DNA of 25,012 nucleotides from a virus, in the IMG/VR virus record IMGVR_UViG_3300010883_018869, positions 1 through 25,012 of that record. One strand, 5' to 3'. Positions 1 through 25,012 of the stretch are shown here, in pieces. Within the stretch, counting starts at the first letter, position 1; each line of letters starts with the position of its first letter. The notes beneath the pieces were generated by a model that ran no database searches, was not told the origin of the DNA, and worked only from the letters and a program-made list of their open reading frames with translations. The position numbers were made by a program, and so were the translations under genes.

Positions 1-231
1 AGTACACCTTACTGGTGGTGGGCAGATATTGCTAATAGTTTAGATTATGTCGTTGAACAGGCATGTTCTGAAGATAGTTCTGCTATTAGACCGAGAGATG
101 ACTGGCAATCTAACATTAAAGAAGCGTGGGGTAAATTTACCGATAAACATGGGGTAGGACCTACTGCAGTACCTGATGTACCTGTTAATGTAGTAATAGA
201 AAAACTTAAACAAATAAAAAATGACCGATAG
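1..231 (+). CDS. 3' end of an unrecognised gene, cut by the window start
   Basis: Frame 1 is open from the first base to a TAG at 229-231, giving the last 76 residues of a protein whose start lies outside the window. The piece begins with an aromatic stretch (STPYWWWADIANSLDYVVEQ) and ends in a charged tail (KLKQIKNDR). It overlaps the next gene by 11 bases, as is usual in this cassette, so it is probably another sugar-biosynthesis or transfer gene. I do not recognise the family from this fragment. Its reality rests on the open frame, sensible composition and tight overlap. Confidence 0.6.
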   Translation, partial: STPYWWWADIANSLDYVVEQACSEDSSAIRPRDDWQSNIKEAWGKFTDKHGVGPTAVPDVPVNVVIEKLKQIKNDR

Positions 232-1154: not shown

Positions 1155-1155
1155 T

Positions 1156-4209: not shown

Positions 4210-4211
4210 TT

Positions 4212-11075: not shown

Positions 11076-11083
11076 AATTATTG

Positions 11084-11089
11084 TATAAC
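11084..11089 (+). promoter_or_regulatory. Possible promoter box upstream of apt
   Basis: TATAAC lies 7 bases before the ATG of apt in a 21-base gap (11076-11096), one of the few gaps in the otherwise overlapping sugar block. It is a weak match to the TAAATA/TATAAT boxes used by later genes and its spacing differs (7 not 5). Confidence 0.3.
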
Positions 11090-11096
11090 ATATATT

Positions 11097-11618
11097 ATGG
11101 TAGATGTTTCTAAAGCTTCGTCAGTTATTCACGACTTTAAACCATACATTAAGGATGTACCAGATTTTCCTATACCCGGGGTTACCTTTAAAGATATTCA
11201 ACCATTATTAGCTGATCCTAAAGTATTTAGACAAGCAATATTTGAAATGTTCTGCAAATTTGAAACTGTTGTAGATTATTGGGTTGGTATTGATTCAAGA
11301 GGATTTATTTTTGCTGCTGGTTTATCACAGTATTCAAATAAAGGGTTAAAACTCATTAGAAAGAAAGATAAACTACCCCCACCGGTGGAATCAAAAACTT
11401 ATGATCTAGAGTATGGTACTGATTCAATACAAATTCAACCAGGTAGCGGTCAAGTAATCATCGTTGATGATGTTTACGCAACAGGTGGTACAATGGATGC
11501 TGCGGAACAACTATGTGTTGATGCAGGGTATGATGTTGTGGGTAAGGTTGTGCTTATAGATCTCGCCTTTTTACATAAACCAACAGATGTTAGAAGTGTT
11601 ATAAAATATGAAGCCTGA
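11097..11618 (+). CDS. apt: Adenine phosphoribosyltransferase
   Basis: A 173-residue adenine phosphoribosyltransferase, which converts adenine and PRPP to AMP and pyrophosphate in purine salvage. Family hallmarks are visible: VPDFPIPGVTFKDIQPLLADP (about 21-41), the RKKDKLPPP loop (88-96), TYDLEYGTD (101-109) as in bacterial Apt, and the PRPP-binding motif VIIVDDVYATGGT (120-132). Length matches cellular Apt (about 170-183). It starts after a small gap with a possible promoter box and overlaps the cupin gene by 11 bases. In a phage it may recycle adenine from degraded host nucleic acid or from adenine-releasing reactions of SAM metabolism; the latter is inference from the two radical SAM genes nearby. 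Confidence 0.93.
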   Translation: MVDVSKASSVIHDFKPYIKDVPDFPIPGVTFKDIQPLLADPKVFRQAIFEMFCKFETVVDYWVGIDSRGFIFAAGLSQYSNKGLKLIRKKDKLPPPVESKTYDLEYGTDSIQIQPGSGQVIIVDDVYATGGTMDAAEQLCVDAGYDVVGKVVLIDLAFLHKPTDVRSVIKYEA

Positions 11619-11976
11619 AATTATAGAATATAAAGACTACCCTAAGGGCTGGGGTAACGAGAGATGGGTAGTAAACAAAGAAAAATACTGCTTAAAGATT
11701 TTATCTTTTAACAAAGGTAGTACCTTTTCTATGCACTATCATATTAAAAAAGAGGAAACCTGGTATGTTGCTAAAGGCAGTCTTGAGTTATCATACTATA
11801 ATTTAACTAATGCTACTCGAATTACAAAGACAATTAACCCAGGCGCGGTTGTTGATATTAAGCCTAATATACCTCACAAGCTTACAGCGTTAAAGGATTC
11901 AGAAATTATAGAAGTTAGTACCCAGCATTTTGAATATGATAGTTACAGAGTTGAACCCGGAGACAGTCAAAAGTAA
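11608..11976 (+). CDS. Cupin, mannose-6-phosphate isomerase type II-like
   Basis: A 122-residue single-domain cupin like the C-terminal isomerase domain of ManC/type II phosphomannose isomerase. GWGNERWVV (about 14-22), the metal-binding cupin motif FSMHYHIKKEETWYVAKG (about 42-59, with two His and Glu ligands), VDIKPNIPHKL with the last His (about 84-94), and the closing EVSTQHFEYDSYRVEPGD (about 102-119) match that family well. It would interconvert fructose-6- and mannose-6-phosphate or a related sugar phosphate. It overlaps apt by 11 bases and the nucleotidyltransferase by about 41. Confidence 0.75.
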   Translation: MKPEIIEYKDYPKGWGNERWVVNKEKYCLKILSFNKGSTFSMHYHIKKEETWYVAKGSLELSYYNLTNATRITKTINPGAVVDIKPNIPHKLTALKDSEIIEVSTQHFEYDSYRVEPGDSQK

Positions 11977-12397
11977 TATTAAGTTAACTTGTGGTTGTTT
12001 TGATATACTACACCGAGGGCATGTACAGGGGTTAAATGCTATAGCTGATGATGGCCCGGGCTCTTTAACGGTTTTAATTAATAGTGATAAAAGTGTAAAG
12101 AGATTAAAGGGTGATACACGACCGATCAACAATCAATATGATAGAAAGTATATATTACAAAGTTTAACTGCAGTAGATAAAGTAATAATTTTCGATACTG
12201 AAAATATTTCATCCCATCTCAACCTTCTTAAACCTGATATATTTTATAAATCAACAGACTATACAATAGACACTTTAAATAAGGAAGAATTGTATGAAAT
12301 TAAAAGGAACAATATTGAAGTTCGTTTTGTTCCTTTTGTTGATGGTTATAGCACTACAAATATAGTAAAGCAAATAAATGATGAAACTAATAATTGA
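11936..12397 (+). CDS. HldE C-domain-like sugar-phosphate nucleotidyltransferase
   Basis: A 153-residue nucleotidyltransferase of the RfaE domain II/glycerol-3-phosphate cytidylyltransferase group. LTCGCFDILHRGHV (17-30) contains the HxGH motif (His26-His29); GYSTTNIV near the end matches the C-terminal ligand loop (usually G.STT.I). In HldE this domain adenylylates heptose-1-phosphate. It is not fused to its kinase, which lies about 3.5 kb upstream at 7645. The start is uncertain: ATG 11936 is used, a TTG at 11930 adds two residues, and later TTG or ATT codons are possible. It overlaps the cupin gene deeply and the HAD gene by 20 bases. Confidence 0.82.
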   Translation: MIVTELNPETVKSNIKLTCGCFDILHRGHVQGLNAIADDGPGSLTVLINSDKSVKRLKGDTRPINNQYDRKYILQSLTAVDKVIIFDTENISSHLNLLKPDIFYKSTDYTIDTLNKEELYEIKRNNIEVRFVPFVDGYSTTNIVKQINDETNN

Positions 12398-12698
12398 TAT
12401 AGACAACACAATCTGCGATACGAGCACTCCAAGTTATTTAGAATCTAAACCCTATAAAAAATTAATAGAGCATTTTAATGAACTATATGATAAGGGATAC
12501 CACTTAACATACTATACTGCAAGGGGTGGTAATTCCGGTATAGATTGGACATATGAAACATCTAAACAGCTTAAAGAATGGGGTGTTAAATACAACAAAT
12601 TAATAATGCACAAACCATCGTATGATTTATGGATCGATGACAAGTGTATTAATATTAATGATTATAGAGCCTCTAAAGGTATAGTTGAAAATAACTAG
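12378..12698 (+). CDS. HAD-superfamily phosphatase, sugar-cluster type
   Basis: A 106-residue HAD-fold protein. IIDIDNTICDT (about 5-15) is the DxDxT nucleophile motif, YYTARGG (about 45-51) the second motif, and PSYDLWIDDKCIN the acidic metal motif near the end. No cap domain is present. Similar small HAD proteins are common in capsule and LPS clusters and are thought to remove a phosphate from a sugar phosphate. In the context of HldE-like kinase and nucleotidyltransferase genes it could fill the phosphatase step (GmhB in bacteria), although it is not the GmhB subtype by length. Two ATG codons are adjacent (12378, 12381); either may be used. Confidence 0.78.
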   Translation: MMKLIIDIDNTICDTSTPSYLESKPYKKLIEHFNELYDKGYHLTYYTARGGNSGIDWTYETSKQLKEWGVKYNKLIMHKPSYDLWIDDKCININDYRASKGIVENN

Positions 12699-12706: not shown

Positions 12707-12712
12707 TATAAT
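12707..12712 (+). promoter_or_regulatory. TATAAT box 5 bases before the start of the DUF366-like gene
   Basis: TATAAT is followed by AAAGT and then the ATG at 12718, the same 5-base spacing as the TAAATA boxes of late genes. It marks the switch from the overlapping sugar operon to separately promoted genes. No Shine-Dalgarno sequence fits between box and ATG. Confidence 0.5.
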
Positions 12713-12717
12713 AAAGT

Positions 12718-13299
12718 ATGTTAATTGATCAAGGTGTTTATGACGGTAAGCTAATTCACGAGCGTTTTGCATATAAGTTCTTTCGAAAAGATGTTTCTCC
12801 GTATGGTAATATTGTTGCTTTTAGGGCTCCAATGTATGTTGAAGATGCTTTAATTGATTTAGAGGATACTTTAAGTAACGACTATATCCATAGTCAAGAT
12901 GCTATTAACTTTTGTTGGGAGATACCTGGTATGTGCCCACTTGGCGCTGTTGCATTTCAAAGACTTTTTAACACAGCAATTGCTAATATACTTGCAAGTA
13001 CTATTAATAAAAGTATTGTTGTTGAAGGTGATGATCTATTAGTTCAAGATCAATTTACAGGTTCGGATAATAAAGTACAGACATCAGGTAAAGTAAGTGT
13101 ATCTATTACGTATTCAAAAGACAACATTACATTAGGTCACACCGGTATTAATATTATAGCTGGTGATAAGGCTCCGGGGTTTGCTTATTCATCTAATCTA
13201 ACTGATGAGCAAGTAGATTACTTTATTGAATCAGCTATTAATTACTTTAATAGCGAAGTAAAAGACGAGTTTATTGCAACTACGAAAATTATAGTATGA
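12718..13299 (+). CDS. DUF366-like protein
   Basis: A 193-residue soluble protein that resembles the DUF366 family of archaea and some bacteria and phages: an early YDGKLIHERFAYKFF segment, IVAFRAPMYV followed by LIDLEDTLSNDYIHSQDAINF (about 45-65), GDDLLVQDQ (about 103-111), and a closing sheet KVSVSITYSKDNITLGHTGINI (about 124-145). The length agrees with that family (about 190). Its biochemical role is not known to me. It has its own promoter-like box and overlaps the clamp-loader gene by 4 bases, so it is probably transcribed with replication genes rather than with the sugar block. Confidence 0.6.
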   Translation: MLIDQGVYDGKLIHERFAYKFFRKDVSPYGNIVAFRAPMYVEDALIDLEDTLSNDYIHSQDAINFCWEIPGMCPLGAVAFQRLFNTAIANILASTINKSIVVEGDDLLVQDQFTGSDNKVQTSGKVSVSITYSKDNITLGHTGINIIAGDKAPGFAYSSNLTDEQVDYFIESAINYFNSEVKDEFIATTKIIV

Positions 13300-13673
13300 A
13301 CTTTTTTCAACTACAACATAAATTATTTTACTCTAAAAAAACAAAATCTGAAGAATTAGACGTAGAGGGTAATCAGACTTTTATACCGTTTCTTATTAAT
13401 AGGTGGTTATCATTTTATAATAATGATATGGCTGTTTTTACAAACGATACATTAAATCGATTTAGCTCCATCTTTGAGAATAAACAAGATACGTATAATT
13501 TATATTATTATTTTATTCCAAGTTTAAAGTGGAAGCGTATAAGCTATATAAAAAAGAAGAAAAAAGACGACCAAGAAGGTACAGAAAATTTAAATCTTAT
13601 AGCTAAAAATAAAAACATCTCAACACGTGAGATACAACAATATGTTGAATTAAGTAAAAGCTTTACTAAATAG
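13296..13673 (+). CDS. 62: Clamp-loader small subunit, gp62-like (Phage_clamp_A type)
   Basis: A 125-residue protein that matches the short form of phage clamp-loader subunit A. Typical motifs are FIPFLINRWLSFYNNDMAVF (about 29-48), DTYNLYYYFIPSLKWKRISYIKKKKK (about 66-91) and the C-terminal NISTREIQQYVELSK. In T4, gp62 forms a 4:1 complex with gp44 and loads the gp45 sliding clamp. This protein is shorter than T4 gp62 (187) but is in the range of other T4-like phages. It starts with ATGA overlap to the DUF366-like gene. gp44 and gp45 must lie outside the window. Confidence 0.7.
   Translation: MNFFQLQHKLFYSKKTKSEELDVEGNQTFIPFLINRWLSFYNNDMAVFTNDTLNRFSSIFENKQDTYNLYYYFIPSLKWKRISYIKKKKKDDQEGTENLNLIAKNKNISTREIQQYVELSKSFTK
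13653..13667. repeat. Inverted repeat abutting the gp31 promoter box
   Basis: AGTAAA (13653-13658) and TTTACT (13662-13667) are inverted copies around AGC, and the last base is the first base of the TAAATA box. This lies in the last codons of the gp62-like gene. It may be an operator or chance. Confidence 0.3.
13667..13672 (+). promoter_or_regulatory. TAAATA late-promoter-like box of gp31
   Basis: TAAATA then GCTGT then ATG 13678: exact 5-base spacing. The box overlaps the stop codon of the upstream gene. It resembles the T4 late promoter TATAAATA. Confidence 0.6.
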
Positions 13674-13677
13674 CTGT

Positions 13678-14094
13678 ATGGCTACAGCTAGTATTGATAA
13701 TTTGGCACCCACTAAAAGTTTAATTGACTTAACAAGATCTGATAGAGGAGACTTTGGTTTTGGAGATTATGAATTAAGTTTTATTTTTGATGATATTCTT
13801 TTAATTGAATACATTGATGAAACAGCGGAGGGTGATCTTAGTAGAGGCGGAATTGTAATACCTACCAATGCTTTAACAAGAGCATGGCGAAAAGGTAAAG
13901 TAATTTTAGCAGGCCCGGACACAAAATATGCAAAAGAAGGCGACGTTGTCGTCTTTCCTAATAATATGGGCGTTACAATTTCCGGAGTCGAAGTAACAGA
14001 TAAAGGTACGGTAAAAAAAGGTATTTTTCTAAACGAAGAGCGAATGTTTGGCATTTGTAAGAAAAGCAATGTTAGTGCAAAAACCAACACTTGA
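13678..14094 (+). CDS. 31: GroES-like co-chaperonin, gp31-like
   Basis: A 138-residue protein with a GroES-type barrel: DDILLIEYIDETAEGDLSRGGIVIP (about 36-60, where the acidic/Gly part would be the mobile loop that binds GroEL), then WRKGKVILAGPDTKYAKEGDVVVFP (about 69-93), in place of the GroES 'G.V.A.G.G......V..GD.V.F' pattern, and a final strand ERMFGICKK. T4 gp31 (111 residues) replaces host GroES so that GroEL can fold the capsid protein gp23. This version has a roughly 30-residue N-terminal extension. It has its own promoter-like box and an expected partner, gp23, at 23338. Confidence 0.82.
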   Translation: MATASIDNLAPTKSLIDLTRSDRGDFGFGDYELSFIFDDILLIEYIDETAEGDLSRGGIVIPTNALTRAWRKGKVILAGPDTKYAKEGDVVVFPNNMGVTISGVEVTDKGTVKKGIFLNEERMFGICKKSNVSAKTNT

Positions 14095-14446
14095 TTCATT
14101 ACTTTTAAATAATGTATGTGAAGTCAGATTTCCTCGTAGAATAATTTTAGCTGGTCAGGCACCTACACGAAAAATGTTATGTACTATGTCTCAATCGTTA
14201 CTTAATTCTATTAATGGTAGAATATCATTAAACTACTTTCCCCCAAAAGGTGCACCTAAACCTTATTTAGGTCCTGATAATTTATCCGTTGGTTGGGATA
14301 TTATAATGCAAGATTATAGAAATATTAATATGAACTCTTGTGAGTTAATTCAGGAAATTCCGGATGATGAGCAGTTTTGGGAATATTTTAATGAGAACAT
14401 ATACCCAATGTCACCATCTCAAAAATTTAATTTTATGAATTCATGA
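14069..14446 (+). CDS. Small phage protein, possible SH3-like barrel
   Basis: A 125-residue protein. A TTG start at 14048 is possible, but ATG 14069 reduces overlap with gp31 to 26 bases and is preferred. LLNNVCEVRFPRRIILAGQAPTRKMLCTMS (about 11-40) is like small T4-like phage proteins with an SH3-like/DUF2693 fold that start 'L..N.CEV.F....G..R.M.CT'. The C-terminal half has WDIIMQDYRNI and EFWEYF-like helical segments. The likeness is moderate and the function unknown. It overlaps the next gene by 4 bases. Confidence 0.65.
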   Translation: MLVQKPTLDSLLLNNVCEVRFPRRIILAGQAPTRKMLCTMSQSLLNSINGRISLNYFPPKGAPKPYLGPDNLSVGWDIIMQDYRNINMNSCELIQEIPDDEQFWEYFNENIYPMSPSQKFNFMNS

Positions 14447-14787
14447 ATGTTTGTTTAGAAAAAGTTACTAATTCCTTAAAGCCCTTTTTATTGAGAGATG
14501 TTATAATTAAAACCGATAAAAAAGTTTTAAAAAAAGGCCGCTTAAAGATTTTCCAAATTAAACAATACTATATTAATTTTACTTTAGAATTTAATGGGTT
14601 AAATAAGTCGTATGAGATACCTTACCCATACCTGGTAGAGATAAATGATGAGCAGAACTTAGCAATCCTTAATTACCATTTAAGTTCTTTTATACCTAAA
14701 AATCAAATAAACAAAGTAAAATGTTTAGATAAATCGTCCAAATCTAAAATTTACGACAACTTAATCTACATCTTGCCTTCTGAATAA
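14443..14787 (+). CDS. Hypothetical basic phage protein
   Basis: A 114-residue Lys-rich protein (KPFLLRDVIIKTDKKVLKKG, about 13-32) with alternating hydrophobic strands and an acidic middle (VEINDEQNL). I do not recognise a family. It overlaps the previous gene as ATGA and ends just inside a palindrome before the helicase gene. It is likely real because of its position and clean start. The fold looks beta-rich with a basic surface that might bind nucleic acid; that is a guess from composition. Confidence 0.55.
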   Translation: MNVCLEKVTNSLKPFLLRDVIIKTDKKVLKKGRLKIFQIKQYYINFTLEFNGLNKSYEIPYPYLVEINDEQNLAILNYHLSSFIPKNQINKVKCLDKSSKSKIYDNLIYILPSE

Positions 14788-14805
14788 AGTATATTATACT
14801 TTATT
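14783..14805. repeat. 23-base near-perfect palindrome upstream of the helicase gene
   Basis: AATAAAGTATA (14783-14793) and TATACTTTATT (14795-14805) are exact inverted copies with one central T. It begins at the previous gene's stop codon and ends at the base before the GTG start of the helicase. It contains a TATACT box. A dimeric DNA-binding protein could sit here, or it could fold as an RNA hairpin. There is no T-tract, so termination is unlikely. Confidence 0.6.
14795..14800 (+). promoter_or_regulatory. TATACT box 5 bases before the helicase GTG start
   Basis: TATACT, then TTATT, then GTG 14806. It lies in the right arm of the 23-base palindrome, so a protein bound there would block it. 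Confidence 0.45.
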
Positions 14806-16443
14806 GTGGTAGGTGGGCTGATAAAAGATTTTCCGGATGGATATACTCCAAACGCTTCTCAAGTAAAGCTTTTAAAAAATATTGATCAAGCTTTTAAAGA
14901 CGGTTATAAATTTGTTGTTTGTAATGCTCCAACCGGTTCCGGTAAAAGCTTTATATCAAAAACTATTGCAAATACCTCAGAAGAACCATCGCAAGACTTT
15001 AAAGACCTGATAACATCATACACTGCGTTTAAAATTGATCAAACCGGAGTTTATACACATGAAGAGGAGTGTAAAGATCAAAATTCTGCAGGAGCTTTTG
15101 CACTAACAATTACTAAAGCCCTGCAAGATCAATACAAGACTTTATTTAAAGGCACTACCATACTTAAAGGAAAGAGTAATTATATTAGTACAATTGACTC
15201 TGAAATTGACGTTGAGATGGAATCATTAATTATGCCTAAAAATATATTGGAGGACCATAGAAGAAGGCATAAATGTCCATATCATAATGACCGAAGTGAT
15301 GCTTTAACAAATAAATTCGCTGCTTTAAATTATAATATGTTTTTCTCTTTACCTAACCACGTAAAAAAGAGACAATACTTAATTTGTGACGAAGCTGCAG
15401 AATTAGAAGATCAATTAGTAAAAGAGTTTTCTTGTACTGTTAATTTTGAAATGCTAAGTAAAATGGATATATTAGTAAGACCCTTTTACACAAAAAACAG
15501 TGCAAATGTAATAAAATGGATTAATACCCTAATATTAGATTTAAGTGATAGAATAGATGAGCTTCGTGATATTATTAACAATAAGAATACCAATAATAAA
15601 AAATTCTTAATTGAAACAAAGAGACAGATAGTTGGTTTACGAAATTTACATTCCAAGCTTACTTTAATTACAGACACATGGAGTGAAAGTGAGTATCTCT
15701 TCGAAACAAATAAAGATGGTATTACATTTATGCCTCTAAAGGTTAATAAGCTCTCTAATCATTTATTTAAATATGCTGATAAGATAATATTAATGTCAGC
15801 TACAATTATAGACCCGTCAAACTTTTGCAAAAGCTTAGGTATAGATAAATTTAAATATGTTGAAGCGGCATCATCCTTTAATGCAAATGATTCACCTATA
15901 TATTGCAATACAAAGGTTAAATTAAATTACCATAACTTAACCCGCAATCTACCGAAAGTTATAGATCAAATAAAACAGATTTGTAAAATGCATAATCAAG
16001 ATAAAGGTATAATACATACACATAATAATAATATTACTAATCAATTAGCCGCGGCTGTAAAAGAAAGTAGATTTTTAATACGTGAACCTGGTGTACGAAA
16101 TGAATTATTGTTAGAACAGCATGCCGAAAGCCCGGATCCAACAGTTTTAATATCACCGTCTATGTCGCATGGGGTTGATTTAAAAGATGATTTGGCGAGA
16201 TTTCAAATTATAGTTAAAGCCCCCTTCTTACCTATAAGAGATAAGCGTATAGAGAAACTAATGAAAAATAATTACGACTGGTATGTAAATAAGATGTTAT
16301 GTGCACTTATTCAATCATGTGGACGTGGTGTTAGATCAAAAAAAGATCATTGTATAACATATATTTTGGACGGAGCTATTGTTGAAAGTGTTATAAACAA
16401 TAAACATAAGTTGCCAAAATATTTCCTTGACAGATTTTCTTAA
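14806..16443 (+). CDS. Rad3/DinG-type superfamily 2 helicase
   Basis: A 545-residue SF2 helicase of the Rad3/XPD/DinG group. Walker A is APTGSGKS (41-48); LTITKALQDQYKTLF (100-114) is motif Ia; the DEAH box is DEAA (195-198); motif VI is QSCGRGVR (503-510), matching the 'Q..GR..R' pattern. HTHNNN at about 403-408 begins the second RecA-like domain. In the usual iron-sulfur region (LKGKSNYIST to HKCPYHND, about 120-161) only one of the four expected Cys (Cys157) remains, so the [4Fe-4S] cluster is probably absent. It likely unwinds DNA in replication or repair. It starts with GTG; no ribosome-binding site is seen. Confidence 0.82.
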   Translation: MVGGLIKDFPDGYTPNASQVKLLKNIDQAFKDGYKFVVCNAPTGSGKSFISKTIANTSEEPSQDFKDLITSYTAFKIDQTGVYTHEEECKDQNSAGAFALTITKALQDQYKTLFKGTTILKGKSNYISTIDSEIDVEMESLIMPKNILEDHRRRHKCPYHNDRSDALTNKFAALNYNMFFSLPNHVKKRQYLICDEAAELEDQLVKEFSCTVNFEMLSKMDILVRPFYTKNSANVIKWINTLILDLSDRIDELRDIINNKNTNNKKFLIETKRQIVGLRNLHSKLTLITDTWSESEYLFETNKDGITFMPLKVNKLSNHLFKYADKIILMSATIIDPSNFCKSLGIDKFKYVEAASSFNANDSPIYCNTKVKLNYHNLTRNLPKVIDQIKQICKMHNQDKGIIHTHNNNITNQLAAAVKESRFLIREPGVRNELLLEQHAESPDPTVLISPSMSHGVDLKDDLARFQIIVKAPFLPIRDKRIEKLMKNNYDWYVNKMLCALIQSCGRGVRSKKDHCITYILDGAIVESVINNKHKLPKYFLDRFS

Positions 16444-16449
16444 TAAATA
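16444..16449 (+). promoter_or_regulatory. TAAATA box before the gp15-like gene
   Basis: TAAATA followed by TATATAG and GTG 16457. Spacing is 7 bases here rather than 5; the AT run allows other registers. Confidence 0.45.
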
Positions 16450-16456
16450 TATATAG

Positions 16457-17641
16457 GTGAAGAAAAGAGCATATCATTTTGAAATAAAAAATCTATTAAC
16501 TCAGTTTATAGCTGCCTTTGATGATGTAGTTATATCCCGGTATAATAAAAGCAGAGTTGCAAAACAAAATATAGATGTAAGGTATGTCTTTGCTCCAAAG
16601 CAAAGAGTAATGTATGACATTATTAATAAAGCTCAAAATTTAACACTACCGGTTGTAGCAGTCGACTTAACGAGTGTTACAAGAGACGATACAAGAGTCT
16701 TTAATAAAATTGTACCGTCTTATCTACCTACACAATTACTCGAAGCACCAAAAGCATCATCAAAATTTTTAATGCCAGTGCCTGTAAATTTAGAAATAAA
16801 CATGTCTATTTTAGCGAGGTATATGCAAGATGTAGATCAAATTGTTTCTAACTTTGTACCGTATAACAACCCATATATTATACTATCATGGCAAGTGCCT
16901 GAAGATTTTGGTACAGAATATACACAAGAGATTAGAAGTGAAGTATTGTGGTCAGGTAATCTAGATTATAATACTCCAACCGAAACCACTTATTCAGATA
17001 AATTTAGAATAACCGTTGATACATCCTTTACTATAAAGGGGTGGTTATTCCCAGAGCAAAAAGATACTTCAGCTACCATTTATAAAGTAGATAATAATTT
17101 TATAAATGTAGATTTAGCTAATAAAATCTACTCACCACTAGATAAAACTACGGTAGTTGGAGATAATACTTACCAAGAATATGGCTACGGTGTATTATCG
17201 GCATTTAATACCGAATCCTCAGGTCTTACTAGTAACACTGAAACAATTACTATATCAGCTATACCGGAGTTTACAAATATATTCTATGTTATTACAGGTC
17301 AGTCAATAATGCTGACCGAAAGCACCACAATTAAAAAAGATCGAATAAATTGGTTTACATTATATGGTAAGAGATTTAACTATAGTAATAATTTTTATCT
17401 AAGTTCTAATGTAGCAGACTTCCGTTCTAATTATACTGCAATAACGTCAGCTAAGTCTGATACAATATCCGGTTATAAGTTAGATGATAGTTTGTTTAAT
17501 GTGGTAAATGATAATGTGGTAAGTATATACTTACCTGCATCAACACTTAGCGCGACAGGAGACATAACATTTATAACAGGAAATGAAGCCGGTTGGGGTA
17601 CTTCTTATCAAGCTAGTAGCTCTATCATCACGGTAGCATAA
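16457..17641 (+). CDS. 15: Tail completion / sheath stabiliser, gp15-like
   Basis: A 394-residue protein similar in its N-terminal about 215 residues to T4 gp15, the hexameric ring that caps the tail tube and sheath and joins it to the neck. Shared features are an opening helix (NLLTQFIAAFDDVVISRYN) followed by a VRYVFAPKQRVMYDI strand, a VNLEINMSILARYMQDVDQIVSNFVPYNNPYI stretch (about 114-145), and a TVDTSFTIKGWLFPE segment (about 186-200). T4 gp15 is 272 residues; here the region after about 215 is an added Ser/Thr-rich, strand-rich domain of about 175 residues. It starts at GTG 16457 and lies directly before the portal gene, without the terminase, sheath and tube genes that separate them in T4. 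Confidence 0.72.
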   Translation: MKKRAYHFEIKNLLTQFIAAFDDVVISRYNKSRVAKQNIDVRYVFAPKQRVMYDIINKAQNLTLPVVAVDLTSVTRDDTRVFNKIVPSYLPTQLLEAPKASSKFLMPVPVNLEINMSILARYMQDVDQIVSNFVPYNNPYIILSWQVPEDFGTEYTQEIRSEVLWSGNLDYNTPTETTYSDKFRITVDTSFTIKGWLFPEQKDTSATIYKVDNNFINVDLANKIYSPLDKTTVVGDNTYQEYGYGVLSAFNTESSGLTSNTETITISAIPEFTNIFYVITGQSIMLTESTTIKKDRINWFTLYGKRFNYSNNFYLSSNVADFRSNYTAITSAKSDTISGYKLDDSLFNVVNDNVVSIYLPASTLSATGDITFITGNEAGWGTSYQASSSIITVA

Positions 17642-17644
17642 ATA
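17639..17644 (+). promoter_or_regulatory. TAAATA box before the portal gene
   Basis: TAAATA overlaps the gp15 stop, then 9 bases to ATG 17654. A TATATA at 17643-17648 gives the 5-base spacing instead; which register is used cannot be told. Confidence 0.45.
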
Positions 17645-17653
17645 TATATAATA

Positions 17654-19465
17654 ATGCCAGGTACAGGTTCATCAACGTCAGGAGGTTCAAATAAATCATA
17701 CGTTACAAACGATGGCCGCGCGTCGACGTTTGGTAGAAATTTAGTTCAGTATATTCAAAATAGACTGCCATACACTTACAATAGCAACGAAGACGACAAT
17801 TTAAATCCAAAATATAAATTCTTTGCTAAAGCTGGAATGCGTAGAGCGGAAGCTTTAGCAAAATCATCTGTTTCTTCATCTAATCCTTATAATAATATCC
17901 CCATTGGTGATTTTGCAAAAGATTCATCATTTGGGGATGTAATGTATGCGAATATACAAGAAGATAAGGGAGGTAGATTAAGAGATTATAGAATTATGGC
18001 AGCATATTCTGAAGTGTCAGACGCTTTGGATGAAATATGCGACGAGGCCATTAACCCCAATGAGGATGGATTTATTACTAAGCTACAACTTAACAATATC
18101 GATCTTACAGTAGATGAAAAAGAGCTTTTAGATAAAGAGTTTGATAAATTTGTAGAATATTTTGATTTAAGAACGAAAGGTTGGCAATACTTTAGACAAC
18201 TGTTAGTAGAGGGTGAAGTTTACTTTGAATTAATCATTCATGATGGATATGTAGATGAAGGCGTGCTGGGTGTAATTAATTTACCCGCTGAAATTATTGA
18301 TCCTGTATATAACAATATACAGAATATGTTAGTTAAGGGGTTTATCTATAGAAAGCCGATCTTTAGCCCGGATCAGCCTAGTAAAGTAGAGAAGGTTGAA
18401 TTTATTCCAATGGATCAAAACCAGATTGTTTATATTAACTCTGGTGTATACAACGAAACTAAAAATTTCGTTATACCTTTTCTAGAAAATGCTAGAAGGC
18501 CCTACAGACAATTATCATTAATTGAAGATGCTATTGTAATTTATAGGCTAGTAAGAGCTCCGGAGAGGTTAGTGTTTAATGTTGATGTAGGTAATATGGC
18601 TCCACCTAAAGCAGAAGCGTATTTAAAGAGATTAATTTCCAATTATTGGTCAAGAAAAACATTTGATGTTGATCAAAATGATGTCGTTAAAAAGTTTAAC
18701 CCACAGTCAATGCTCGATGCTTTTTGGTTCGCTAAACGTCAAGGATCTGAAGGTACACAAGTTACACAATTACCTGGAGGTAATAACTTAGGTGAATTAG
18801 CTGACCTAATGTATTTTATAAAGAAGCTATACAGAGCTTTAAAGGTACCTTCTGCTCGTTTAGATCCAGCTGATCAGGTTGATGCAACTGGTACTACGGT
18901 TTTAAGAGAAGAGTTAAAATTCGCTAGGTTTGTTATTAGACAACAACATCGTTTTGCAGCAGGTATTAAAAAAGGATTTATTACATCCCTAAAGCTAAAA
19001 GGAATTTTTGAAAAGCTCGATCTAAATGAAACAAATTTAGAGGTTGACTTTAATGTACCTACTAATTTTTACGAGCTTAGAGAAAATCAAAGGTTAGAGC
19101 TAAAATCTAACAACTTTACCAATCTAGCTGGCAGCGAATTTGTTTCAGCAACATATGCTCAAAAGAAATACCTTGGATGGAAAGATAGAGATATATTAGC
19201 CAATAGAGAGTTTTTGAGAAAGGATGCCGAACTGCAGTGGGAATTAGCACAAATTATGGCGGCAGGTCCAACTTGGAAGGAGCAAGCAGCTGCAGTTGGT
19301 GTAGCGGGAGACGAAGCTGCAATCGGTGGTGAAGGCGCTGGTATTGGCGGAGGCGGCGGCAGCGGTGGTATCCCTGAATTTGGAGGCGGCCCAGCTGAAG
19401 TTGAAGCAGATGTAGAGACTGAAACCGAAGTTGATACTTCAGTAGCTACTGAAGAGCCTACCTAG
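17654..19465 (+). CDS. 20: Portal protein gp20
   Basis: A 603-residue portal protein of the T4 gp20 family, the dodecameric ring at one capsid vertex that nucleates head assembly and passes DNA. Typical gp20 features are the RLRDYRIMAAYSEVSDALDEICDEA segment (about 109-133), YRLVRAPERLVFNVDVGNM (about 297-315), and the QLPGGNNLGELADLMYF, LKVPSARLDP and VLREELKFARFV motifs of the crown/stem region (about 373-430). T4 gp20 is 524 residues; the extra length is partly a C-terminal low-complexity tail of Gly runs and then Glu/Val/Thr (about 552-603). The last 8 bases overlap the end of the minus-strand gene. Confidence 0.93.
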   Translation: MPGTGSSTSGGSNKSYVTNDGRASTFGRNLVQYIQNRLPYTYNSNEDDNLNPKYKFFAKAGMRRAEALAKSSVSSSNPYNNIPIGDFAKDSSFGDVMYANIQEDKGGRLRDYRIMAAYSEVSDALDEICDEAINPNEDGFITKLQLNNIDLTVDEKELLDKEFDKFVEYFDLRTKGWQYFRQLLVEGEVYFELIIHDGYVDEGVLGVINLPAEIIDPVYNNIQNMLVKGFIYRKPIFSPDQPSKVEKVEFIPMDQNQIVYINSGVYNETKNFVIPFLENARRPYRQLSLIEDAIVIYRLVRAPERLVFNVDVGNMAPPKAEAYLKRLISNYWSRKTFDVDQNDVVKKFNPQSMLDAFWFAKRQGSEGTQVTQLPGGNNLGELADLMYFIKKLYRALKVPSARLDPADQVDATGTTVLREELKFARFVIRQQHRFAAGIKKGFITSLKLKGIFEKLDLNETNLEVDFNVPTNFYELRENQRLELKSNNFTNLAGSEFVSATYAQKKYLGWKDRDILANREFLRKDAELQWELAQIMAAGPTWKEQAAAVGVAGDEAAIGGEGAGIGGGGGSGGIPEFGGGPAEVEADVETETEVDTSVATEEPT

Positions 19466-19841
19466 CAGGGTTACTACTAAAGAACTGAGTTCTATAATAT
19501 AATGTCCCAGCGCCGGAGGAAGTAGCAGCAGATACCTGATTTACATTAGTTAACCCTCTAAGAGTTATTGTGTCATTATCATCTAATGCTAACCTATGAT
19601 CAACACTTGTAAAGGAATGATCATATATATATATAATCTGCCCAGTTTTATTATAAAGAATAACTTCTGAACAAGGCTGACCACCACTTAATATTGCAGT
19701 ACCAGCTGCAGTCCCTACTGGAGCTGCCCCTGTTAGCACTTTAACGGCTGTTGTGACATACTGGTTAAAGGATCTACACTGGTTTTGATTATAATACGTA
19801 CTAGTATACGGTTGGTTACTTTTAGGAGGTGATGTCGCCAT
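19458..19841 (-). CDS. Putative small virion protein on the opposite strand
   Basis: This 127-residue protein is the only gene read from the minus strand, and it fills the gap between the portal and neck genes. It begins MATSPPKSNQPYTSTYYNQN and has a strand-rich core: EVILYNKTGQIIYIYDH, then LALDDNDTITLRGLTN and GTLYYRTQFFSS near the C-terminus, which is the style of small phage decoration or fibre proteins. I do not recognise a named family. Support for a real gene is the TAAATA box exactly 5 bases before its ATG, lack of any + strand alternative, and non-random composition. It ends tail-to-tail with gp20 (8-base overlap). Confidence 0.72.
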   Translation of the reverse strand: MATSPPKSNQPYTSTYYNQNQCRSFNQYVTTAVKVLTGAAPVGTAAGTAILSGGQPCSEVILYNKTGQIIYIYDHSFTSVDHRLALDDNDTITLRGLTNVNQVSAATSSGAGTLYYRTQFFSSNPAR

Positions 19842-19846
19842 ATATT

Positions 19847-19852
19847 TATTTA
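19847..19852 (-). promoter_or_regulatory. TAAATA box of the minus-strand gene
   Basis: Read on the minus strand: CAGAC, TAAATA, AATAT, ATG (start at 19841). The CAGACTAAATA sequence is the same as that before the gene at 24972. It is back to back with the plus-strand box at 19860. Confidence 0.6.
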
Positions 19853-19859
19853 GTCTGAT

Positions 19860-19865
19860 TAAATA
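19860..19865 (+). promoter_or_regulatory. TAAATA box of the gp13-like gene
   Basis: TAAATA, ATTTT, ATG 19871: exact 5-base spacing. It forms a divergent pair with the box at 19847-19852; only 29 bases separate the two start codons. Confidence 0.6.
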
Positions 19866-19870
19866 ATTTT

Positions 19871-21118
19871 ATGGCACTTGCATGCACTATTCAACCACTT
19901 TCTGCGTTTTTATCTACCAATCTCAATAGTAAAGTAGAAACATATGACAGGTTGGGTGATAGAATAAAGAGAACACTAGGGTATCCTTTAATATCTTTAG
20001 AGATACACACCGATCAACTTAGAGAAAACATACAAATAGCGGTAGAATATTATACCAAATTTGCAGGCTTTACAAAGGAATTCTTAATATTTGATTCAGC
20101 TACGTATGAAACCAACAAAGGAATACGCTTAGATCTACTTTATACTTTAGCAAATACAGATTTAGATACCAATAAAAAGAAAACCGGTGGTACAAATCCA
20201 CTAGGCCCGGGCCCAGAATTTTATGGTTCTAACCCGCCATACACCGCAACTAATGGTCCTACCTTATTTGTATGTACTTCGGCAATACTCTCATCATACT
20301 TTGTTAATACAATAGCACACGCAGATTCAACTACGTTGTCCGCCTCTCTTTCTTCTATATTTACCCCTACCTCCGGAGGTACGAACGGAATTTCAAAATT
20401 CGAATTATTTGACAAAACGCTATACTCCTCTATTACCTCTCTAAGTGCTATTGGATCTCCGGTAATAATAGGGCATACTTTATCCGCATATTTTAAACAA
20501 ACAGCACAAAACACACTTACGTTTGAAGGATCTGCTTCTAACGCTATATTCTATCAGAATGTATTTGATTATGATATAATGGATTATAGAAAGGTAGTCG
20601 ATGTTACTGATTTTGAAGAAGGTTCAACAACTGGTATTAACACATTATTTACATTAGAGCAAACAATGGCGCAGCAAACTTATTTTAGTTATGCTATGGG
20701 TAACTATGGCTTTGATCTTGTATCATGGTATACTTTAAAAGAATGGATAGATACGAGAGAAAAAATGCTTGCTACGCGTAGAGATATTAAGTTTGATCCA
20801 AGAACACAATACATGCAAATGTATCCGCAGCCAGGTGGTGATAGATTTTACGGTGTTATTGCTTGTTACCTAGAACGCGCTATCCGGGATGTTATTATGG
20901 AGCAATGGATTTATGAATATTCATTAGCTCTAAGTATGATGACTATTGGTAGAGTTAGAGGTAAATTTGGTAATGTCCAACTACTTGGAGGCGGCGCGCT
21001 TAACTATGAAATGCTGCAAGAAGGTAGAGAGCGTAAAAAAGAACTAGAAGACCAATTATTACTAGGAGCATCACCGGGATTTGGTGATACAGACCCACCA
21101 ATGTTCTTTGTAGGATGA
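19871..21118 (+). CDS. 13: Neck protein gp13-like
   Basis: A 415-residue protein resembling T4 gp13, a neck protein that joins the filled head to the tail. The N-terminus (DRIKRTLGYPLISLEIHTDQLRENIQIAVEYY, about 30-61) and C-terminus (VQLLGGGALNYEMLQEGRERKKELEDQLLL, ending PPMFFVG, versus PPFGILVG in T4) both align. T4 gp13 has 309 residues; the difference is mainly a Ser/Thr-rich insertion at about 115-225. It overlaps the gp4 gene by 4 bases. In T4, gp13 lies next to gp14 and gp15, so gene order is rearranged. Confidence 0.78.
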   Translation: MALACTIQPLSAFLSTNLNSKVETYDRLGDRIKRTLGYPLISLEIHTDQLRENIQIAVEYYTKFAGFTKEFLIFDSATYETNKGIRLDLLYTLANTDLDTNKKKTGGTNPLGPGPEFYGSNPPYTATNGPTLFVCTSAILSSYFVNTIAHADSTTLSASLSSIFTPTSGGTNGISKFELFDKTLYSSITSLSAIGSPVIIGHTLSAYFKQTAQNTLTFEGSASNAIFYQNVFDYDIMDYRKVVDVTDFEEGSTTGINTLFTLEQTMAQQTYFSYAMGNYGFDLVSWYTLKEWIDTREKMLATRRDIKFDPRTQYMQMYPQPGGDRFYGVIACYLERAIRDVIMEQWIYEYSLALSMMTIGRVRGKFGNVQLLGGGALNYEMLQEGRERKKELEDQLLLGASPGFGDTDPPMFFVG

Positions 21119-21561
21119 AAAAGCCTAGAAAATGGCGTCAGGGTATCTTTGTACCTAATAATATAGACAAATTTATAGGTAACCGCGCTATATATAGATC
21201 AGGTTTAGAGTTAAAATTTTTTAGATTTTGCGATAATACCGAAAATGTATTAAAATGGGGTAGTGAAAACGTTGTAGTACCGTATAAAAGCCCGCTAGAT
21301 AATAGAATGCATAAGTATTATGTAGATAATTATATAGTTATTAAAGAAGGCTCGGAAATTAAGAAGTATTTGGTAGAAATTAAGCCATATAAACAAACAC
21401 TTAAACCTACAACCAAATATAAAAAGAAGCAACATATCATATATGAGCAAAAGGCATATATTACTAACCAGGCTAAATGGGAAGCAGCACAAAAATACGG
21501 TAAGAAACGAGGGTATTCCTTTATTATTTTAACGGAAAATGAGCTTTATTATAAAAGATGA
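21115..21561 (+). CDS. 4: Head completion nuclease-like protein gp4
   Basis: A 148-residue protein of the T4 gp4 (gp50) family, of nearly the same length (150). The family core is visible: IGNRAIYRSGLELKFFRFCD (21-40), WGSENVVVPYKSPLDNRMHKYY (48-69), then Asp71 and the YLVEIKP strand with E88-x-K90, which form a PD-(D/E)xK-like nuclease arrangement as in TnsA. Gp4 is needed to complete DNA-filled heads before tail joining. A GTAGG sequence just before the ATG may serve as ribosome-binding site, but coupling through the ATGA overlap with gp13 is also likely. Confidence 0.88.
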   Translation: MKKPRKWRQGIFVPNNIDKFIGNRAIYRSGLELKFFRFCDNTENVLKWGSENVVVPYKSPLDNRMHKYYVDNYIVIKEGSEIKKYLVEIKPYKQTLKPTTKYKKKQHIIYEQKAYITNQAKWEAAQKYGKKRGYSFIILTENELYYKR

Positions 21562-21562
21562 T

Positions 21563-21568
21563 TAAATA
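21563..21568 (+). promoter_or_regulatory. TAAATA box of the gp21 gene
   Basis: TAAATA, ACATT, ATG 21574, exact 5-base spacing; it lies in the 12-base gap after the gp4 stop. Confidence 0.6.
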
Positions 21569-21573
21569 ACATT

Positions 21574-22239
21574 ATGGCTTTAAAACTTAACCTGGTTGTC
21601 GAAAAACCTGATATAAATGATAAGTTTGAATATATTGAAGAAGAAGTAGATAGAAACTCTCCCTCTAATCTTTATATTAAGGGACCGTATATGATGGCGG
21701 AAGGTATAAACAGAAACAACAGACTATACCCTTTGGCTGAATTAAAGCGAGAAGCTAGCCGCTACATAGAAGAAATGGTAACCCCCGGGCGCGCGATGGG
21801 TGAACTTAACCATCCAACAACAGCTGATGTAGATCTAGAAAGAGCTTGTCACATGGTAACTGAATTAACACAGGATGGTAACGTGTTTTATGGTAAAAGT
21901 AAAGTATTAACAACCCCATGTGGTCAAATAGTTAGGTCTTTAATCAATGACGGTGTTAAAGTTGGTATGTCATCACGTGCTTTAGGTACATTGGACGAGG
22001 GATCTGACTTTAATACAGTAACAAACATGAAATTAGTAGCTATTGACTGTGTAGCTGACCCGTCATATCCTAAAGCTTTTGTAAATGGTATACTTGAATC
22101 AAAGCAATGGGTGATGGTAGATGATAATAAATACGAAGAAGTGTATAATAATTTTGAAGAATCAATTAAAACGTTACCTAAAAAGGATATAGATGCATAT
22201 TTGCGTAACAAAATTCTCACTTTTATTAACTCTATATAA
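21574..22239 (+). CDS. 21: Prohead core protease gp21
   Basis: A 221-residue serine protease of the T4 gp21 family, which matures the prohead by cleaving scaffold and capsid proteins after (I/L)xE sites. LYIKGPYMMAEGINRNNRLYPLAEL (about 33-57) is family-typical. The candidate catalytic residues are His80 (MGELNHPTT), Ser133/134 (VGMSSRALGT) and Asp158 or Asp162 (IDCVADPSYPKA). Length matches T4 gp21 (212). Its likely substrates gp22 and gp23 are encoded right downstream. Confidence 0.93.
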   Translation: MALKLNLVVEKPDINDKFEYIEEEVDRNSPSNLYIKGPYMMAEGINRNNRLYPLAELKREASRYIEEMVTPGRAMGELNHPTTADVDLERACHMVTELTQDGNVFYGKSKVLTTPCGQIVRSLINDGVKVGMSSRALGTLDEGSDFNTVTNMKLVAIDCVADPSYPKAFVNGILESKQWVMVDDNKYEEVYNNFEESIKTLPKKDIDAYLRNKILTFINSI

Positions 22240-22245
22240 TAAATA
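22240..22245 (+). promoter_or_regulatory. TAAATA box of the gp67-like/gp22 genes
   Basis: TAAATA, ATAAT, ATG 22251, exact 5-base spacing, directly after the gp21 stop. Confidence 0.55.
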
Positions 22246-22250
22246 ATAAT

Positions 22251-22397
22251 ATGGCCTCACAAAAAAATAAGATTGTTAAATTTATCGAGCATATTTCTAA
22301 TAAAAATTATGCCATGGCGCATAAATATTTAAAGAGCGTTATTGGTGATAAATTAACAACAAAGATCAGTAAGGCTGCAGAAAAACCACTCTTTTAA
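22251..22397 (+). CDS. 67: Small prohead core protein, gp67-like
   Basis: A 48-residue ORF. It begins MASQKNKIVKFIEHISNKNY and ends KISKAAEKPLF. The pattern of an amphipathic helix (FIEHI, then AMAHKYLKSVIGDKL) is like the N-terminal half of T4 gp67 (Pip), an internal core protein that acts with gp22 and gp68; it lacks the acidic tail of T4 gp67. Its position between the protease and the scaffold gene supports the role. In T4 the order is 20-67-68-21-22. It is preceded by a TAAATA box and followed 2 bases later by gp22. Confidence 0.6.
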   Translation: MASQKNKIVKFIEHISNKNYAMAHKYLKSVIGDKLTTKISKAAEKPLF

Positions 22398-22399
22398 TT

Positions 22400-23251
22400 A
22401 TGAATAAAAATGTATTACCCGAAAACGCTGAAAAGATGTTATCTGAAAAATCTATTGATGACATAGAAAATGCCATTAGTGAAAAAATTGAATTGCAGGT
22501 TGAAGCAGCGTTAACTAATCAAGATGAACTTTATGCTGGAAAATTACAAGAACTTGTAGCAGCTATTGATAAAGATCACTCTACTAAACTTACAAGAGTT
22601 GTAGAAGCTATTGATCATAGTAATGCTACTAAGCTAGTTAAGGTAGTTAAAAAGTATGAAAGAGAATTAGGCACAGATGCAAGTAAATTTAAAAATACTC
22701 TCGTAGAATCTATTTCCGACTACATTGAAGAGTATATTAAAGACAGTGTACCTACAGCAGCCATTGTTGAGGCTACACAAAATCGCGCAGCCCGTGACGT
22801 TTTAACTAATTTAAGAAAAGTTCTAGCAGTTGATTCATCGCTTATGAATGAATCAGTTAAAGAAGCTGTAGTAGATGGAAAGCAGCAAATTAACGTACTT
22901 GCAAAACAAGTAAATCAACTTGAAAAACAAAATAACCTTTTAAAAGAAGCTTATAATAAAAATAAAGCAGACTTATTGCTTGAAACAAAAACTGCAGGTA
23001 TATCAGATAAGAAAAAAGAATATTTGAAGAAGATCTTATCTGATAAAACACCAAAATTTATTGAAGAAAACTTCGAATATACCGCTAAACTCTTTGACAA
23101 AAAAGAGAATGAGCGTATACAGGTAATAAAAGAGGAAGCATTTGTACAGCGTAAAGTTAAAGCAGATGCTCCAAGAATAATTTCTAAGAAAGAAAAGCCA
23201 AAAGAGGCGCGTAACCCTTATTTAGAGGAGTTGCAGCGCATCCATAAGTAA
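22400..23251 (+). CDS. 22: Prohead scaffold protein gp22
   Basis: A 283-residue, highly charged, nearly all-helical protein in the place of T4 gp22 (269 residues), the major scaffold around which the gp23 shell forms. A long coiled-coil-like region (KQVNQLEKQNNLLKEAYNKNKADLLLE, about 172-198) and the C-terminal NPYLEELQRIHK, which fits the conserved scaffold tail that contacts capsid, support the call. Several L/I-x-E sequences offer sites for the gp21 protease. The start follows the gp67-like stop by 2 bases, and no ribosome-binding site is seen, so it is probably coupled. Confidence 0.85.
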   Translation: MNKNVLPENAEKMLSEKSIDDIENAISEKIELQVEAALTNQDELYAGKLQELVAAIDKDHSTKLTRVVEAIDHSNATKLVKVVKKYERELGTDASKFKNTLVESISDYIEEYIKDSVPTAAIVEATQNRAARDVLTNLRKVLAVDSSLMNESVKEAVVDGKQQINVLAKQVNQLEKQNNLLKEAYNKNKADLLLETKTAGISDKKKEYLKKILSDKTPKFIEENFEYTAKLFDKKENERIQVIKEEAFVQRKVKADAPRIISKKEKPKEARNPYLEELQRIHK

Positions 23252-23337
23252 TTTTTTCCCCTGAACAACGAGGTGCTTGTCACCTGAGTAACTTGGGACT
23301 AGATCCCATGAGGCAAAAATGAAAGGAAACGTCTAAT
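23252..23337 (+). promoter_or_regulatory. Structured 5' leader of the capsid gene
   Basis: This 86-base gap holds two small hairpins: AGGTG/CACCT with a 5-base loop (23271-23285) and TGGGA/TCCCA with a 5-base loop (23294-23308). An AAAGGA Shine-Dalgarno sequence at 23322-23327 lies 10 bases before ATG 23338. No TAAATA box sits next to this start. The hairpins could set mRNA stability, translation or ribosome access. I do not match it to a known riboswitch. Confidence 0.55.
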
Positions 23338-24855
23338 ATGAATAAACCACAATCATTTATCGATAGAGATAGAGCAGATACACTTCTAGAGAAGTGGGCA
23401 CCTGTTCTTGAATATTCTTCTGATAGTGTTAAGCCCATCGAAGACGATCATACCCGTTTGAATACCGCCATTCTTCTTGAGAACCAAGAACGATGGTGTA
23501 TTGAAGAGGGTTCCTCTGTAGGTGGAGGTTCTTTCGGAAAAGGTGCTAGTATGTCGAGTCTTTATAACCCGACAGACGGCACTATCAATTCCGGAGACAA
23601 CTACGCTGCAGGAGACGCTCGTCTTCCTAAGGTACTTATCCCAATGATACGTCGTACGTTCCCTGAGCTCATTACTAATGAGATCGTTGGTGTTCAGCCT
23701 ATGTCAGGTCCTGTTGGACTTGCATTCGCTCTTCGATATGCTTATCAAGCCGATTACTTAGGTAACGGTACTGATGGCACGAACGCCGGCAAGTCAACCA
23801 CTGGTCCTGGTACGCCTCCAAACACTCCTGACGGAGCTGATGGGGCGACACGAGGAACTTATACTGGTGTTGACGGTCTTAATGCAGATGAGCTTGGTTA
23901 CCAACTCCTTGATACACGTTTTACCGGTGCTTCGTCATACAGCTTGTCTGGTGATGACTCTAACTGGTCATTCGCTGATCAAGATCAAGGTGTTGCACAG
24001 ATCCTATCCGCTTTTGAGATTACTGGAAACATTCCTCAGGTCGAGGTTAAGTTCGAGAAGACCGCTGTTGAGGCTGGCACACGCCGCCTTGGCGCACGTT
24101 GGTCCGTCGAACTTGAGCAAGATCTTAAGAACATGAACGGAATCGATATCGATGCTGAAATTACGAATGCTATGTCATACGAAATTCAAGCTGAGATCGA
24201 CCGTGAAATGCTCATGAGAATGATTCAGTCAGCTCTTAATGCTGGAATTAATAAAGGATTCTCCTTCTGGTCACCTGCTTCTGCAGATGGTCGTTGGTTA
24301 GTAGAACGTAATAGAGACTTCTATCAGCGTCTTATCATCGAAGCCAATCGTATCGCCGTGCGCAACAGACGTGGTGCTGCAAACTTTATTGTTTGTACAC
24401 CTCGTGTAGCTGCTATCCTTGAGATGCTCCCTGAATTTCAGTGGGTACCAGTTCAAGGTGATGTAAATACACAGCCTGTTGGCATTGCAAAGGTTGGCTC
24501 ACTCGGTGGGAGATTCAGCGTTTACCGTGATACCCGTACAGAGGTTCAGAATTCCAGTATATACGACGAGCAAACATACACATCGAATGGTGCAGCAATC
24601 ACCACTTCAATTGAGTATGCACTGCTTGGCTATAAGGGACCTGAATTCTACGATACAGGTATCATCTATTGTCCTTACATTCCTGTCATGGTACAGAGAA
24701 CTATTGGTCCTAACGACTTCGCACCACGTGTTGGCTTGCTTACTCGTTATGGTGTTGTTGACAACATCTTCGGAGCAAATCTCTATTATCATGTCATACT
24801 TGTTCAGGGACTTGGTACTGCGTTCACTCCAGCTTCTCAGTCAGTATACTTCTAA
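23338..24855 (+). CDS. 23: Major capsid protein gp23
   Basis: A 505-residue T4-type major capsid protein, close to T4 gp23 (521). The region PKVLIPMIRRTFPELITNEIVGVQPMSGPVGLAFALRY (about 99-136) is diagnostic, followed by RRLGARWSVELEQDLKNMNGIDIDAE (about 249-274) and RRGAANFIVCTP (about 344-355). The N-terminal propeptide has an IEE-G site (Ile55-Glu57, Gly58) matching the gp21 (I/L)xE rule, so the mature protein probably starts at Gly58. Codon use is unlike neighbours: Arg is mostly CGT/CGC rather than AGA, and C-ending codons are common, fitting very high expression. A gp31-like chaperonin at 13678 is the expected folding partner. Confidence 0.96.
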   Translation: MNKPQSFIDRDRADTLLEKWAPVLEYSSDSVKPIEDDHTRLNTAILLENQERWCIEEGSSVGGGSFGKGASMSSLYNPTDGTINSGDNYAAGDARLPKVLIPMIRRTFPELITNEIVGVQPMSGPVGLAFALRYAYQADYLGNGTDGTNAGKSTTGPGTPPNTPDGADGATRGTYTGVDGLNADELGYQLLDTRFTGASSYSLSGDDSNWSFADQDQGVAQILSAFEITGNIPQVEVKFEKTAVEAGTRRLGARWSVELEQDLKNMNGIDIDAEITNAMSYEIQAEIDREMLMRMIQSALNAGINKGFSFWSPASADGRWLVERNRDFYQRLIIEANRIAVRNRRGAANFIVCTPRVAAILEMLPEFQWVPVQGDVNTQPVGIAKVGSLGGRFSVYRDTRTEVQNSSIYDEQTYTSNGAAITTSIEYALLGYKGPEFYDTGIIYCPYIPVMVQRTIGPNDFAPRVGLLTRYGVVDNIFGANLYYHVILVQGLGTAFTPASQSVYF

Positions 24856-24899
24856 TAGTACATCGCTGACTAAGCAGCAGTCGAGAGACAAATCACAAA

Positions 24900-24928
24900 C
24901 AGCAGAGCGAAAGCTCTGCTGTTTTTTT
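24900..24928 (+). terminator. Strong intrinsic terminator after gp23
   Basis: CAGCAGAGC (24900-24908) and GCTCTGCTG (24913-24921) form a 9-bp perfect stem closed by a GAAA tetraloop, followed by seven T (24922-24928); the AAA before and TTT after can lengthen the stem. It ends transcription of the head operon 45 bases after the gp23 stop. Confidence 0.93.
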
Positions 24929-24960
24929 GTTTTCCTCTGTAATTATTTTTATAAACAGAC

Positions 24961-24966
24961 TAAATA
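24961..24966 (+). promoter_or_regulatory. TAAATA box of the last gene
   Basis: CAGAC, TAAATA, TTAAT, ATG 24972. It is identical through CAGACTAAATA to the minus-strand box at 19847, and it comes after the terminator, so it must start a new transcript. Confidence 0.65.
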
Positions 24967-24971
24967 TTAAT

Positions 24972-25012
24972 ATGTCATTCAATTTATCATCGTTCGATAC
25001 TGGTCTTTATAA
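24972..25012 (+). CDS. 5' end of the next gene, cut by the window end
   Basis: An ATG 5 bases after a TAAATA box opens a frame reading MSFNLSSFDTGLY up to the window end. By T4 gene order a vertex, sheath or tube gene could follow, but thirteen residues are too few to tell. Confidence 0.6.
   Translation, partial: MSFNLSSFDTGLY

Follow-up and report, generated by a model that had tools for sequence, protein, structure and literature searches.

We propose that in a clade which, by its sequences, is one of uncultured marine T4-like phages, gp55-type late promoters and host-type early promoters would fire at the start codon itself and produce leaderless mRNAs, a reading to which we assign a probability of roughly 0.85. 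The argument starts from a TAAATA box at a fixed distance of five bases (N5) from the start codon, a position from which the mRNA most likely begins at the coding sequence and which excludes a ribosome-binding site. In the proposed mechanism, host RNA polymerase together with a phage gp55-type sigma factor would open the DNA at the box, whose centre lies near -9. The sixth base past the box, the first letter of ATG or GTG, would be the first base of the RNA. The first gene would thereby have an mRNA with no leader, which the ribosome would bind at a start codon on the 5' end. Downstream genes of the operon often overlap or touch the preceding stop codon (ATGA, TAATG) and are probably translated by coupling. 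The early and middle genes would use TTGA-N16/17-TATAAT promoters lying 1-2 bases further out, giving leaderless or nearly leaderless mRNA.

The window, i.e. the whole stretch of DNA analysed, is the 25-kb virus record IMGVR_UViG_3300010883_018869 (25,012 nucleotides, positions 1 to 25,012). A sugar/LPS-type gene block comes first, and after it a head module of T4 type in the order helicase, tail sheath stabilizer, portal gp20, head-tail adaptor, head closure, prohead protease gp21, a small head-module gene, a gene at the gp22 position and the major capsid gene gp23 (Table 1). Identity of the portal and capsid to the nearest named phages is only ~29-34%, and portal matches at 72-100% were found in 80 IMG/VR loci. 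Five long relatives (86-197 kb) were analysed, the three longest of which were used for ORF-based counts, with genes called by a simple ORF caller made for the present analysis.

Table 1. Promoter boxes, genes and the capsid gene leader in the window
Feature	Position	Strand	Support
Late box TAAATA, N5 before ATG 13678	13667..13672	+	spacing 5 in 35/39 orthologues
GroES-like co-chaperonin gene, predicted leaderless	13678..14094	+	PHROG 3188, E 7e-7
Late box TAAATA, N5 before ATG 19841	19847..19852	-	spacing 5 in 42/43 loci
127-aa gene without assigned function, predicted leaderless, divergent from 19871	19458..19841	-	ORF
Late box TAAATA, N5 before ATG 19871	19860..19865	+	spacing 5 in 67/68 loci
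Head-tail adaptor gene, predicted leaderless	19871..21118	+	PHROG 211, E 1e-16
Late box TAAATA, N5 before ATG 21574	21563..21568	+	spacing 5 in 46/50 loci
Prohead protease (gp21-like), predicted leaderless	21574..22239	+	PHROG 207, E 1e-54
Late box TAAATA, N5 before ATG 22251	22240..22245	+	spacing 5 in 45/45 loci
Small head-module gene, 48 aa, predicted leaderless	22251..22397	+	position of T4 gene 67
Late box TAAATA, N5 before ATG 24972, gene cut by window end	24961..24966	+	sequence
Sigma-70-like -10 box TATAAT, N5 before ATG 12718	12707..12712	+	TATAAT-like box near start among orthologues listed
DUF366 gene	starts 12718	+	Pfam DUF366
Sigma-70-like -10 box TATACT, N5 before GTG 14806 (DNA helicase)	14795..14800	+	TATAAT-N5-GTG among orthologues listed
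Late box TAAATA, N7 before GTG 16457 (tail sheath stabilizer)	16444..16449	+	spacing 7-12 in relatives
Late box TAAATA, N9 before ATG 17654 (portal, gp20)	17639..17644	+	spacing 6-11 in 74/75 relatives
Two-hairpin leader of major capsid gene gp23 (start 23338)	23256..23337	+	34 loci, 43 invariant columns

All six TAAATA-N5-ATG sites of the original prediction are present where it placed them, compared with 1.38 expected from dinucleotide shuffles (0/100 shuffles reach six) and a mean of 0.69 for TAAATA-to-ATG at other spacings in the window. Scanning of spacings 0-30 in the five long relatives revealed a sole sharp peak at 5 (43, 40, 30, 16 and 18 matches), with a shoulder at 6 and 0-5 matches at spacing 4; three long related records contain 113 copies of the motif, where spacings 12-39 predict 16.4. 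When the counts are limited to ORFs of at least 80 aa in three records, ATG starts have 88 boxes at N5 and 36 at N6, with mostly ~3 at other spacings, GTG starts have 24 and 4, respectively, and no TTG start has TAAATA at N5. Only 5/1647 internal ATGs are preceded by TAAATA-N5, which rules out an equal frequency of the box at random in-frame ATG codons, and among letter permutations of TAAATA a comparable peak appeared only in the overlapping ATAAAT frame. Across the 80 loci, the 269 N5 matches fall in 205 different contexts. The spacing is also kept among orthologues of the individual window genes (Table 1), in tests that, like the spacing scans, presuppose no N5 spacing; 28 of the 42 loci for the minus-strand box are listed as spacing 1 because of the overlapping TAAATAAATA. 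A family search with the 48-aa gene gave no match.

The five bases between box and start codon had been described as constant in length and variable in sequence. Constancy of length holds across orthologues, in which the five bases take 7-10 forms, and the freedom of sequence is only partial: base-frequency tables of the relatives, conditioned on the box, give T or C at -1 in 97% and T at -4 in 66%. The -1 pyrimidine followed by A at +1 makes an initiator-like step. The prediction that the A of ATG would be the +1 base agrees with the geometry of T4 late promoters, in which an 8-bp box beginning at -13 precedes the transcription start by one helical turn and no -35 element is used (PMC2988020); combined with N5, this geometry would bring +1 onto the A of ATG. 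Another way to read the same boxes is as promoters at which RNA starts 1-4 bases to either side of the A of ATG, yielding very short leaders or mixed starts. We regard this as unlikely, even though the N6 shoulder (36 vs 88) and the short-leader genes gp20 and 16457 speak for it and the choice of transcription start in bacteria is known to vary by a base or two, because the N5 peak is far sharper than such a scheme needs, N4 is nearly empty, and -1 Y/+1 A is the usual initiator step.

Start-site initiation would extend beyond the TAAATA boxes. The TATAAT-N5-ATG and TATACT-N5-GTG sites before 12718 and 14806 were both recovered, with TATAAT-like boxes close before the start in orthologues of both genes, and the helicase gene at 14806 has a GTG start in 47/47 loci. 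Their grouping with the TAAATA boxes stands for these N5 sites and fails genome-wide: in the relatives, the favoured distances of TATAAT from the start codon are N6 and N7 (33 and 26 matches), not N5, and TTGA lies 16-17 bases upstream of it, which marks a separate sigma-70-like class. The TAAATA boxes have no conserved -35 hexamer upstream. From this geometry, the TATAAT class is predicted to consist of sigma-70 promoters with the RNA start at or beside the start codon, and it would be difficult to account for the 1-2 bases by which the two classes differ if the RNA start did not set both spacings. A restriction of leaderless geometry to late genes does not fit these data, as the TATAAT class appears to place early-type genes in a similar arrangement. 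In relative G001 (L087-L097), 27/50 AAGGAAC sites have TANNNT, a TATAAT-like -10, at N5; AAGGAAC is perhaps a middle-promoter or activator element there.

The genes behind the boxes point to a late promoter. Family matches in the relatives assign box genes to tail tube, sheath, portal, protease, terminase, baseplate and fibres; boxless genes are mainly replication genes (DNA polymerase, helicases, clamp loader, UvsX, primase and nucleases), plus a small number of genes for head and baseplate, that of the major head protein included. A gp55-like late sigma factor, for which a search had been suggested, has a homologue in 5/7 clade records searched (E ~1e-26), sharing 41% identity with T4 gp55 over 80 residues; none was seen in the 25-kb window, which is a fragment. 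The gp33-like factor searched for at the same time was not detected in the clade, where it may have diverged, nor was the gp45 clamp (PF02916), for which the model is barely sensitive even in HTVC008M. Compared to the T4 octamer TATAAATA, the relatives have A at -12 in 64% and A (50%), C (26%) or T (12%) at -13; Aeh1, an accepted member of the gp55 system, likewise deviates at the first positions of the octamer (PMC2988020). The gp55-dependent late promoters of T4 and those of the clade share an AT-rich box without a -35 element, a place before virion genes and a gp55 gene in the genome. They differ in the -13 base, for which the clade mostly has A or C in place of T, and in the undetected gp33 and gp45. 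The main difference is one of position: T4 and cyanophages have the box ~20-29 bases before ATG and use Shine-Dalgarno (SD) sequences, whereas the clade has it 5 bases before. T4, S-PM2, Syn9 and P-SSM2 show a TAAATA hump at ~20-29 bases from the start and no N5 peak; KVP40, RM378, P-SSM4, P-RSM6 and SynMITS9220M01 gave no clear N5 excess, and CP220 gave 6 at N5 vs 2.

As the original prediction had it, the box genes lack SD sequences: an SD-like word stands before 6/151 of them in the three longest relatives, not above background. The boxless genes of the same relatives have such a word at the right place in 32/363 cases (control 41), compared to 123/190 in T4 and 85/152 in HTVC008M, reference phages with SD. 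Since both groups are at background, SD is missing clade-wide and not just from the box genes. About 26-33% of the relatives' genes are boxless with a start -20 to +12 bases from the upstream stop, most commonly at or near -4 (ATGA), and 22-28% (about a fifth to a quarter) fit no start class. It is reasonably probable that the whole clade gave up SD, such that early, middle and late mRNAs would start at the first start codon, the sigma classes would be offset accordingly, and downstream genes would be reached by coupling; late transcription in this scheme may lack canonical gp33/gp45.

The missing SD sites mean that some other initiation signal is needed, and the box could in principle be that signal, an AU-rich translation element (an S1-type enhancer or a Kozak-like context) inside a longer mRNA. 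We consider this very improbable. Divergent starts demand a promoter for each gene, because the two genes point away from each other, and most of them have a box: 74/92 divergent starts in three relatives have a late or sigma-70-like box at the leaderless position (0/10 in T4 and 2/16 in other reference phages), and at the window pair 19841/19871 two TAAATA boxes stand back to back, 7 bases apart. In addition, the two box types lie at different distances as promoter classes predict, with a -35 accompanying TATAAT only, and the TAAATA genes belong to the late class. That the N5 boxes are a by-product of AT-rich sequence (GC ~34%) and of short gaps with TAA/TAG stops beside ATG, as the overlap or contact of several boxes with an upstream stop might suggest, has next to no probability, given that the effect is missing in shuffles, reversed patterns, letter permutations and internal ATGs, and in the similarly AT-rich T4 and P-SSM2.

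Late genes made as leaderless mRNAs, the core of the original prediction, are thus favoured by the N5 peak, the gp55 homologue and the absence of SD, with gp20, the sheath stabilizer and gp23 as leadered genes to which it does not apply. At gp20 and the sheath stabilizer the spacing is N6-N12, which predicts leaders 1-7 bases long; not every box gene would therefore be exactly leaderless. On present sequences, the major capsid gene is the main exception to the leaderless rule. Its leader is a candidate new structured 5' UTR of ~80 bases that would fold into two hairpins, with compensatory changes at two pairs and a variable hairpin 2 that can carry an 11-base insertion. The conserved pattern reads GAACAAYGAGGTGCTTG..CACCTGAGTA..GGGA..TCCCATGAGGT..GAAAGGAAACG. 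Each clade record searched contains it once; in the window it precedes gp23, and in the relatives it has the equivalent location. Rfam gave no match to it. Immediately upstream of this leader, at the stop of gp22, there is a degenerate box, cAAATA.

Leaderless transcription has precedents elsewhere. Thermus phage phiYS40 produces leaderless middle and late mRNAs (reviewed in PMC3594737). Like the phages predicted here, it is a lytic phage whose middle/late mRNAs have no leaders; it differs in its host, and the clade, whose rule is known from sequence alone, also puts early-type promoters in the leaderless position. To our knowledge, phiYS40 is not a gp55 late system. TA-led leaderless genes are described in Actinobacteria and Deinococcus-Thermus, with a TA-like -10 signal ~10 bp upstream of the start codon as in the clade (PMC3160421); those genes are cellular, whereas the present ones are phage genes with a phage late sigma and no SD use at all. 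No report of a leaderless gp55/T4-type system was found in the open-access literature, which leaves subscription journals mostly uncovered. Joining a T4-type late system to leaderless translation, as the present data suggest, would merge the two, and would predict transcript starts exactly, and testably, for >100 genes of uncultured ocean phages. The N5 spacing also supplies a rule for correcting start-codon annotation in phages of the clade.

The pelagimyophages HTVC008M and Mosig have a weaker N5 excess (14 vs 4 control and 11 vs 3), and HTVC008M-type relatives mix N5 boxes with SD leaders (SD in 225/318 ORFs of related loci). Prediction of late promoters was unsuccessful in a study of pelagimyophages (PMC7029224), and the N5 rule may help explain why they were missed. 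Both phages encode ribosomal protein bS21 (HTVC008M 91237-91392, Mosig 9983-10132), a possible explanation of SD-free translation that was not detected in the window clade.

Under the leaderless reading, the host becomes a candidate bacterium with good translation of leaderless mRNA. Among genome contigs, the portal alignment yielded no relative. One sugar-pathway gene has 59-69% matches in Pelagibacteraceae and Rhodospirillaceae (marine alphaproteobacterial) and in a Parcubacteria bin, which is not diagnostic of the host; neither the genomes matched by this gene nor 150 genomes of the phylum showed a clear enrichment of sigma-70 leaderless patterns. A Bacteroidota host was considered because of the missing SD and is not favoured, as enrichment of the TAnnTTTG -7 motif is unconvincing and the early promoters resemble TTGA-N16/17-TATAAT.

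The sugar/heptose/aminotransferase block of the window (221-12698) is mostly 56-88% identical to relative G003 and absent or distant in other relatives. The DUF366 gene (12718-13299) is present in all long relatives read, which, with a QueC-like gene found in relative G002, makes a 7-deazaguanine pathway possible. An Rfam scan of the window gave nothing convincing; in two relatives, Rfam matched full-length tmRNA genes (L087:15777-16193 and L106:13253-13662).
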